The translations under genes were made by a program, and so were the position numbers. Of a stretch of 64,000 nucleotides of DNA, positions 23,569-61,715 are shown piece after piece. The notes under the pieces were generated by a model, which was not told the DNA's origin, ran no database searches, and worked only from the letters and a program-made list of their open reading frames with translations. The stretch lies in NCBI RefSeq assembly GCF_003096655.1, contig NZ_QEKQ01000001.1, positions 372,001 to 436,000 of the forward strand, given 5' to 3'. Source of the stretch: Tamilnaduibacter salinus. Lineage in GTDB: Bacteria; Pseudomonadota; Gammaproteobacteria; Pseudomonadales; Oleiphilaceae. Within the stretch, counting starts at the first letter, position 1. Each line of letters begins with the position of its first letter.

Positions 23569-24429
23569 GTGTATCGAGTCAAACAGTTACCGGGGGATGC
23601 GGACCTGTCGACGTTCAGTGAGTGGCTGCGTCAGCAGGGCGTGACTCATCGCATTTCGAGCGAAGGTGAGGCGCAGATCCTGTGGCTGGAAGACCCGTCC
23701 CTGACCGATGAGGTGCTGGTGGCGCTGGACCAGTACATGCAGCGTCCGGACGCACGGCGCGTCATCCGCCAGAGCGTGCACTCGCCGGTGTTCGTGAACG
23801 GGCGCTGGCAACCCGCGCCCCGGCACGCCCCGCTGGTTCTCGGCGCCATCATTGTCGCCGCGATTCTGGCCTGGGTGACGGGGCTCGGCCGGCATCCGTC
23901 GTCGACCTTTTTCATGTTTGTCGACCCGGAATCGTTTCGCTGGGACACGCTGGATCAGCGCCTTGGCGCATGGAGCGCGACCCTGACCAGCGGGCAGTTC
24001 TGGCGGCTGATCACACCCGACTTTCTGCATTTCAGCTGGTCGCACATCATCTTCAATAGCGTGATGCTGTGGTTCCTCGGCAGCCAGGTGGAGTGGTTCG
24101 ACGGCAAAGCGCGGCTGATCACGCTGTTCATCGGCATCTCACTGCTCTCCAACTCGCTGCAGTATCTCGCAAGCGGGCCGCTCTTCGGGGGGTTGTCCGG
24201 TGTGGTGTACGGCATTCTCGGCTACTGCTGGCTGAGCCAACAGCGCATGCCCCGGTTCCAGTTCCCGCCGGCGCTGGTGGTGGTGGCGCTGGTCTGGATG
24301 CTGATCGGCTTTACGCCTCTGCCGGTCTGGCTGGGCATCGGGCGCATGGCCAACGAAGCCCACCTGGGCGGTTTTGTGGCCGGCATCCTGCTGGCGCTGC
24401 TGCCGCCGCCGCGTCAGACGGGGTCGTAA
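23569..24429 (+). CDS. glpG: Rhomboid intramembrane serine protease GlpG
   Basis: The 286-residue inner-membrane protease cleaves substrates within the bilayer. A cytoplasmic N-terminal domain of about 85 residues precedes six membrane helices. The catalytic serine is in GGLSGVVYG near residue 210 and the histidine in NEAHLGGFVAG near residue 265. FSWSHIIFNSVMLWFLG supplies the HxxxN oxyanion motif. GTG at 23569 is used, three bases after the previous stop. It forms an operon with nadK and the phosphoesterase. Confidence 0.94.
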   Translation: MYRVKQLPGDADLSTFSEWLRQQGVTHRISSEGEAQILWLEDPSLTDEVLVALDQYMQRPDARRVIRQSVHSPVFVNGRWQPAPRHAPLVLGAIIVAAILAWVTGLGRHPSSTFFMFVDPESFRWDTLDQRLGAWSATLTSGQFWRLITPDFLHFSWSHIIFNSVMLWFLGSQVEWFDGKARLITLFIGISLLSNSLQYLASGPLFGGLSGVVYGILGYCWLSQQRMPRFQFPPALVVVALVWMLIGFTPLPVWLGIGRMANEAHLGGFVAGILLALLPPPRQTGS

Positions 24430-24505
24430 AAGTCAGGGAGTGGTGGTCCCTCTCGTGGTCACACCATCGACACGTGTGACGACAGGATGAGTTGGGCGAG
24501 CAGAC

Positions 24506-24597
24506 AAAAAAAGGCCCCGCAAAGGCGGGGCGAAATGAGCCGTAAAGCTCCTGATGAGAGAGACCAAATGGAAACGACCGTTCTCACTTGGCACGGT
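24506..24597 (-). ncRNA. Putative Fur-regulated small RNA
   Basis: On the minus strand a -35 TTGACT (24631-24626) and a -10 TATTAT (24607-24602) are 18 bp apart and predict a start near 24597. About 90 nt downstream is a strong intrinsic terminator, GCCCCGC-CTTT-GCGGGGC followed by TTTTTTT (24531-24506). A Fur-box-like sequence overlaps the -10. The transcript has no useful ORF and contains the C/U-rich stretch GGTCTCTCTCATCAGG, which could pair with Shine-Dalgarno regions. The arrangement equals that of iron-sparing RNAs such as RyhB and PrrF; no sequence identity to either is claimed. Confidence 0.65.
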
Positions 24598-24600
24598 GAA

Positions 24601-24619
24601 AATAATAATAATTATCATT
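24601..24619. promoter_or_regulatory. Fur-box-like operator
   Basis: The 19 bp AATAATAATAATTATCATT match the consensus Fur box at 14 of 19 positions by hand alignment. They cover the -10 region of the minus-strand small-RNA promoter, so Fur-Fe binding would repress it. The next plus-strand gene starts 184 bp away. Confidence 0.55.
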
Positions 24620-24802
24620 TGCCGGAGTCAACCCTTTTCAGAAAGAAATTCCGAAAAACTGTGCGTTGGATCAAATGCGATGCCGGTGATTGGCCCGATG
24701 AACCGGTTGCCTGTGTGGCTGTGGTAAACTCCGGGGCATTCGAGAGCGGCCCGCTCCGGGCCTGCCGAGACCATTGACCTGTGATCCCGACCGGCGGAGT
24801 GC

Positions 24803-25057
24803 ATGAACTACCAGGATCTGATTGAGCGTTTGGACCCGTCCGTGTACCAGAATCTGCGAAGAGCTGTGGAGCTGGGTAAGTGGCCGGACGGTCGAACCCT
24901 GACCGAACAGCAGCGAAAAACCTGCATGGAGGCGGTCCTCTATTATGAGCGCGTGCACAACCTGCCCGAGGACCAGCGCGTGGGGTACGTGGATCGCCGC
25001 CGCCATGATGAAAAAGGGGCCGGGGATGGGGCGGACCCGATCCGAATCCTGAATTGA
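24803..25057 (+). CDS. DUF1315 (YeaC-like) small protein
   Basis: The 84-residue cytosolic protein begins MNYQDLIERLDPSVYQNLRR and continues with AVELGKWPDGRTLTEQQ and LYYERVHNLPEDQRVGYVDR, which is the DUF1315 family. No enzymatic motif is visible and the function is unknown. The gene stop lies 14 bp before the start chosen for the next gene. This pairing with a DUF2797 gene upstream of pepN is common in related gammaproteobacteria, to my knowledge. Confidence 0.88.
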   Translation: MNYQDLIERLDPSVYQNLRRAVELGKWPDGRTLTEQQRKTCMEAVLYYERVHNLPEDQRVGYVDRRRHDEKGAGDGADPIRILN

Positions 25058-61638: not shown

Positions 61639-61715
61639 TGGTCGGGACGGGAGGATTTGAACCTCCGACCACCTGCACCCCATACAGGTGCGCTACCAGA
61701 CTGCGCTACGCCCCG
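61639..61715 (-). tRNA. tRNA-Pro(GGG), integration site
   Basis: A 77-nt tRNA with a 7-bp acceptor stem (CGGGGCG/CGTCCCG-like), D-arm containing CTGGTAGCGC, anticodon arm CCTGT-ATGGGGT-GCAGG with anticodon GGG, T-arm GGAGG-TTCAAAT-CCTCC, and encoded CCA. The 3' 49 bp are repeated at 56486-56534, so the element inserted into this gene and restored it. It reads CCC codons, and CCU by wobble. Confidence 0.97.

Follow-up and report, generated by a model that had tools for sequence, protein, structure and literature searches.

A predicted PrrF-type, Fur-repressed small RNA between the rhomboid and DUF1315 genes of Tamilnaduibacter salinus and its Marinobacter relatives

The small RNA (sRNA) RyhB of enterobacteria is Fur-repressed, Hfq-dependent, and iron-sparing. 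PrrF of Pseudomonas (Rfam family RF00444) has a promoter-fused Fur operator, a UCUC-CUCAUCAGG core, an ACGG stretch, and a terminator, all of which are common to PrrF and the element described here, and the available text of PMC13104616 describes pairing of PrrF over the Shine-Dalgarno sequence and start codon of the iron gene brnD in Pseudomonas. BrrF of Burkholderia cenocepacia is likewise an iron-starvation sRNA, with predicted TCA, SOD, and Fe-S targets; according to the accessible portion of PMC7377471 it has no Fur box of its own, is co-expressed with hemP, and is dissimilar to known Fur sRNAs, whereas the present element has a predicted Fur box. The excerpt available from Livny et al. 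(2008; PMC2527527) reports a Fur box ending 1 nt past the promoter at 73 of 74 loci with homology to known Fur-regulated sRNAs, and that 26 further loci carry this operator without homology to known ones; an earlier, unnamed Marinobacter prediction may be among those 26. No description of a PrrF-type RNA in Marinobacter was found in the accessible parts of the literature on PrrF, PA4431, Halomonas sRNA, and Marinobacter Fur/iron small RNA.

We analyzed a 64-kb stretch (the window) of the 3.4-Mb Tamilnaduibacter salinus genome, where an earlier note had proposed a Fur-repressed, trans-acting, iron-sparing sRNA in an otherwise unexplained gap. The element occupies the minus strand from 24506 to 24631, inside a gap (24430-24802) that indeed holds no family-supported gene. 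Along the minus strand, the hexamers TTGACT and TATTAT, 18 nt apart, are followed by about 88 nt and then by a GC-rich hairpin with a T-run (Table 1). The genome contains a Fur gene, a second FUR-family gene, and an Hfq gene. The only Rfam match above cut-off within the window is a tRNA-Pro (GGG) gene at 61639-61715 on the minus strand.

Table 1. Features of the predicted sRNA locus, in window coordinates, and iron- or heme-related predicted targets, by locus.
Feature	Positions or locus	Strand	Comment
Rhomboid protease gene	23569-24429	+	Context; adjoins sRNA 3' side on opposite strand, conserved
DUF1315 gene	24803-25057	+	Context; adjoins sRNA 5' side on opposite strand, conserved
-35 hexamer TTGACT	24626-24631	-	Promoter scan
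-10 hexamer TATTAT	24602-24607	-	Promoter scan
Predicted Fur box AATGATAATTATTATTATT	24601-24619	-	17 of 18 specified positions of AATGATAATnATTATCATT, one mismatch
Predicted sRNA	24506-24595	-	About 88-90 nt; start placed from the -10, end from the T-run
5' hairpin GCCAAGUG...CAUUUGGU	24563-24592	-	Predicted fold and covariation analysis
Conserved core GGUCUCUCUCAUCAGGAGCU, 20 nt	24546-24565	-	Proposed target-pairing region
CUCUCUCAUCAG inside core	24562-24551	-	Unpaired in predicted fold
Small hairpin GAGCUUUACGGCUC	24537-24550	-	Sits where PrrF core 3' half CUAAUCACGG would be
Rho-independent terminator, stem GCCCCGC/GCGGGGC and T-run	24507-24531	-	Stem 24531-24514, 7 G-C pairs
Rieske oxygenase	L173		Predicted target
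petA (bc1 Rieske protein)	L179		Predicted target
CcoG (cbb3 assembly factor)	L196		Predicted target
hemL	L219, partial		Predicted target
Cytochrome c	L221		Predicted target
gltD	L242, partial		Predicted target
hemE	L243, partial		Predicted target

The consensus-like minus-strand promoter claimed in the earlier note is the best promoter-like site between 23500 and 25700 (three sites found, 0.4 expected). The Fur consensus is AATGATAATnATTATCATT, and the 19-mer in Table 1 is the sole site with three or fewer mismatches to it in 64 kb; 100 shuffles yielded none. The proposed Fur-box-like operator over the -10 is thus borne out: the box overlaps the hexamer, and its 3' end (24601) lies 1 nt beyond the -10 end (24602), exactly the operator position given in the available text of PMC2527527. 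Thirty-five relatives of the locus were extracted, and three diverged ones (L050, L055, and L060) were omitted from alignments A2 and A3. Distance from the -35 to the Fur box is constant, within 1 nt, in the A2 rows, which were cut at TT[GT]AC, so that the -35 is present in relatives by construction. On the plus strand, two weaker promoter-like sites at 24581-24615 overlap the Fur box and are directed toward DUF1315; Fur might also influence that gene.

The predicted fold of the RNA has an energy of -33.3 kcal/mol compared with -22.9 for shuffles (z -3.3), and comprises, in order, the 5' hairpin, the open CUCUCUCAUCAG, the small hairpin, and the terminator. Its C/U-rich core, which corresponds to the tract first pointed out within about 90 nt of non-coding sequence, is the most conserved RNA segment among relatives. 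In the relatives' alignment, the covariation score and the number of cells paired exceed those of all 500 shuffles; pairs changed on both sides (3, shuffle mean 1.9) are not above shuffles, and covariation by itself is insufficient to carry the case. The strong terminator that had been claimed is present on the minus strand only, the plus strand having no T-run there. U-run terminator, predicted unpaired seed, and Hfq gene together fit a candidate of the Hfq class of trans-acting sRNAs.

One minus-strand frame (24433-24618) stays open across the transcript, as would be expected of an mRNA leader or a small-protein gene, but the transcript is closed by the terminator and no supported minus-strand gene follows. 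None able to use the RNA as a leader was seen near the element, and what lies downstream is just the rhomboid gene in antisense orientation, which makes the 5' UTR that the earlier note had named as an alternative unlikely. In the part of the RNA that precedes the core, relatives also vary by 1-nt indels; these break any conserved frame, so the small-protein reading was dropped. We give a leader or small-protein gene scarcely any weight.

The Rfam PrrF model aligns end to end with the element at 43.6 bits (E 3e-6), below its curated cut-off of 90 bits, and consequently the RNA would stay unannotated. RyhB (RF00057), whose regulatory logic is the same as that proposed for the element, scores just 17.1 bits, where its cut-off is 55. 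Matches to RyhB, anti-hemB, mmgR, and other Rfam families were rejected, being far below cut-off and aligning mainly with the terminator and C/U-rich stretch.

Because much of the Rfam PrrF score comes from the promoter, the RNA was tested without it. Covariance model R1, which is based on the 32 rows of A3 and restricted to the RNA part, served to search 390 genomes of the order. All R1 matches below E 1e-9 fall within the window's own family, and among the next, at E 2.5e-4 to 9.2e-4, are L084, L085, L087, L089, and L091, which belong to one family and score 158-163 bits with Rfam PrrF; we take that family to be Pseudomonas, partly from these scores. R1 also finds L082, L086, L088, and L092 (family f38), which contain copies with Rfam PrrF scores of 43-59 bits. 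A Fur-like box, an element absent from R1, is located upstream of all nine of these out-of-family loci (9/9; 14-18 of 19 positions, wild-card counted). Three other R1 matches (L083, L090, and L093) have a poor Fur box (10-11 of 19); they are probably due to chance and were not counted as relatives.

Nine PrrF and PrrF-like RNAs, stripped of their promoters, went into the reverse model, R2. It ranked this site first in the 64-kb window (E 5.5e-4; next E 3.5), and when applied to 32 given loci (E up to 1) it recovered the window's own copy along with 17 of 18 relatives and left the 13 others unmatched; the relative L060 was matched only at E 0.73 and L050 was missed. The RNA part is thus related to PrrF in both search directions. 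The view in the earlier note that the sequence resembles neither RyhB nor PrrF stands for RyhB, and fails for PrrF given the full-length alignment and these reciprocal matches.

The RNA part shared with PrrF comprises UCUC(U)CUCAUCAGG and ACGG. From the complete PrrF core, UCUC(U)CUCAUCAGGCUAAUCACGG, the 5' half is kept and only UUUACGG remains of the rest, the 3' half CUAAUCACGG being replaced by a hairpin; the 5' part of the element is also shorter than that of PrrF. Genera g2 and g14 have, at the same locus, TCTCTCATCAG followed by TTCACAG, TTCACGG, or similar, and genus g3 has a shorter CTCTCATCAG with TTCACAG. These forms are nearer PrrF's AATCACGG, and another family carries the intermediate form ATCTCTCTCATCAAGCTAATCACGG. 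The PrrF-like loci of the order (L082, L086, L088, L092, and L371 in f38; L372 in f37) have the same CUCUCAUCA core with a Fur box upstream, and the four f38 loci scored are below the Rfam cut-off like the element. Unlike the element, they retain GCUAAUCACGG and are often in tandem, with two to five copies, and L082, L086, L088, and L092 are not flanked by rhomboid and DUF1315. At L371 (genome G411), five tandem PrrF-like sRNA genes lie about 277-302 nt apart within approximately 350-1650, and every gene has a separate Fur-like box (14-17 of 19 positions, wild-card counted); L372 and L092 have three PrrF-like copies each.

None of the PrrF and PrrF-like loci checked has rhomboid-DUF1315 neighbors. 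The different chromosomal site, the score under the Rfam cut-off, and the scant likeness to PrrF beyond operator, core, and terminator could also reflect a Fur-repressed iron-sparing sRNA of independent origin, which came to resemble PrrF through a favored operator and a similar C/U-rich seed. We consider this unlikely, since the promoter-free models find each other's loci both ways and intermediate forms occur in g2, g14, g3, and another family. Under the preferred explanation of descent from PrrF, the other neighbors would mean that the gene moved during descent. These comparisons point to a diverged PrrF-type RNA that occupies a different chromosomal site and carries a hairpin in place of the 3' half of the PrrF core.

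The distribution of the element was assessed in 163 genomes of the family. The Rfam PrrF covariance model (E up to 1) gave matches in 84/163 genomes, none of the 163 above cut-off, and the 30 best loci (L005-L034, including the window's own, L008) all lie between rhomboid and DUF1315. R1 (E up to 0.01) matched 135/163 genomes, in 8 of 16 genera, leaving 28 without a match at that threshold; g3 and g14 have diverged versions at the same locus that R1 mostly missed. A second R1 match in G040 (E 0.005) covers just a terminator, with neither core nor Fur box, and was discarded. The core GGUCUCUCUCAUCAGGAGCU is nearly invariant among relatives. When the bare core CATTTGGTYTCTCTCATCAGGAGC was searched alone in the species collection, 78 copies were found in 77 named contigs, 76 of them with Marinobacter titles and one a Halomonas-titled MAG, in which the genes flanking the core match the rhomboid-DUF1315 locus. 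Every copy (78/78) has a Fur box 25-30 nt upstream, with 16-19 of 19 positions (wild-card counted), and a run of at least five T downstream; since neither feature was in the search pattern, their co-occurrence is an independent check. Conservation in relatives indicates that the element is not a chance arrangement, and the predicted PrrF-type sRNA is widespread in the Marinobacter family. The core is present in M. nauticus (L156). In Marinobacter xestospongiae (L133 and L375), two tandem sRNA copies lie 233 nt apart, and both have a Fur box and a terminator; the pair is reminiscent of PrrF1/PrrF2.

Potential targets were sought by scanning the whole genome for the complement of the core, CCTGATGAGAGAG, with up to two mismatches, the same letters reversed serving as control. 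There are 85 sites (one being the sRNA gene itself) compared with 26 for the control. A mechanical start-region rule kept 28 frames (27 loci) vs 2, and 14 vs 0 start-region matches had Pfam support above cut-off, a below-cut-off Pfam match at L227 being left uncounted. Iron or heme genes are 7 of the 14 (Table 1), a classing made after the list was seen and without a measured iron-gene background; the other seven encode a methyltransferase, a phosphotransferase, YbaB, a phosphatase/ArsR protein, an HTH protein, an ABC ATPase, and glutamine synthetase. A C/U-rich core is favored by purine-rich Shine-Dalgarno leaders generally, which counts against the target case, and conservation of complementarity is a better test of targets than the iron-gene count.

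For that test, petA and gltD were picked because this genome had matches there, and 13 of the 30 loci fetched per gene were used (genera g1, g5, g8, g11, and g12), leaving out the sRNA-bearing g2 genomes, whose core differs, and L295, at a contig end. In the 13 sRNA-bearing genomes, GCCTGATGGGAGAAAACC is little altered in the petA leader while the upstream DNA diverges, and across petA leaders L282-L311 GCCTGATGGGAGAA(A)ACC is kept before petA between diverging flanks. Genera with a diverged sRNA have a related petA site (AGCTGCTTGATGGGAGAAGCC in g2); in g9, g13, and g14 petA retains at most a weaker site, and beyond the close clade gltD has only a weak one. Duplexes with the core average -24.6 kcal/mol for petA leaders and -20.0 for gltD leaders, and each gene beats 300/300 shuffled cores across the 13 genomes. 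The target prediction on iron-protein mRNAs that the earlier note had suggested thus yields two leaders with conserved predicted complementarity. For control leaders (11 genomes each), shuffled cores were as good in 262/300 cases for rhomboid, 48/300 for DUF1315, 13/300 for DUF2797, and 134/300 for PepN. DUF2797 leaders (relatives of the one at window position 25054) pair with the core better than 287/300 shuffled cores, and this next-door gene is a possible weak target.

These controls also bear on whether the locus is a Fur-controlled antisense RNA or terminator element on the rhomboid gene instead of a trans-acting RNA. The RNA is directed at the rhomboid 3' end, and the sRNA terminator of L005 and similar Marinobacter loci extends to where the rhomboid alignment stops, so that the two genes may overlap there at their 3' ends. 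In the window, however, the predicted RNA ends about 77 nt before the rhomboid stop (24429), its most conserved segment lies outside the gene, the plus strand lacks a T-run, and conserved complementarity is found in other genes and not in the rhomboid leader. An action on rhomboid appears to us very improbable.

Comparison gives good support to the trans-acting, iron-sparing sRNA originally proposed, through conservation of the Fur operator, of the unpaired core, of the terminator, and of complementarity in two iron-gene leaders, and the element is very probably the gene of a PrrF-type, Fur-repressed sRNA acting on iron and heme mRNAs. With iron present, Fe-Fur over the -10 would block transcription. 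When iron is short, Fur would leave and sigma-70 polymerase would transcribe the RNA of about 88 nt, whose unpaired C/U-rich core, probably with Hfq, would pair over the Shine-Dalgarno/start region of mRNAs encoding iron-sulfur proteins, heme proteins, and proteins of heme synthesis (petA, gltD, cytochrome c, CcoG, Rieske oxygenase, hemE, and hemL), blocking translation and sparing iron. The seed proposed for pairing with the petA and gltD leaders is CUCAUCAG. Such start-region pairing would resemble that of PrrF on brnD, as far as the available text of PMC13104616 describes it. We infer transcription, Fur binding, Hfq dependence, and the regulatory direction from the arrangement of the locus and its relatives.

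The habitat of Marinobacter is iron-poor seawater. With this finding, iron-sparing RNAs of the PrrF kind would reach beyond pseudomonads into a family of marine bacteria, where they would have a constant genomic position, flanked by rhomboid and DUF1315, and a testable list of targets. The finding also indicates that many relatives go unlisted under the Rfam PrrF cut-off. More tentatively, and with considerable doubt, we suggest that PrrF in the Marinobacter lineage may have lost half of its core and been refocused, via the short seed CUCUCUCAUCAGGAGCU, on the respiratory chain and heme supply (bc1 Rieske protein, cytochrome c, CcoG, hemE, and hemL). If this were true, iron starvation would turn down the cytochrome bc1 route in these bacteria, and not only dispensable iron enzymes.
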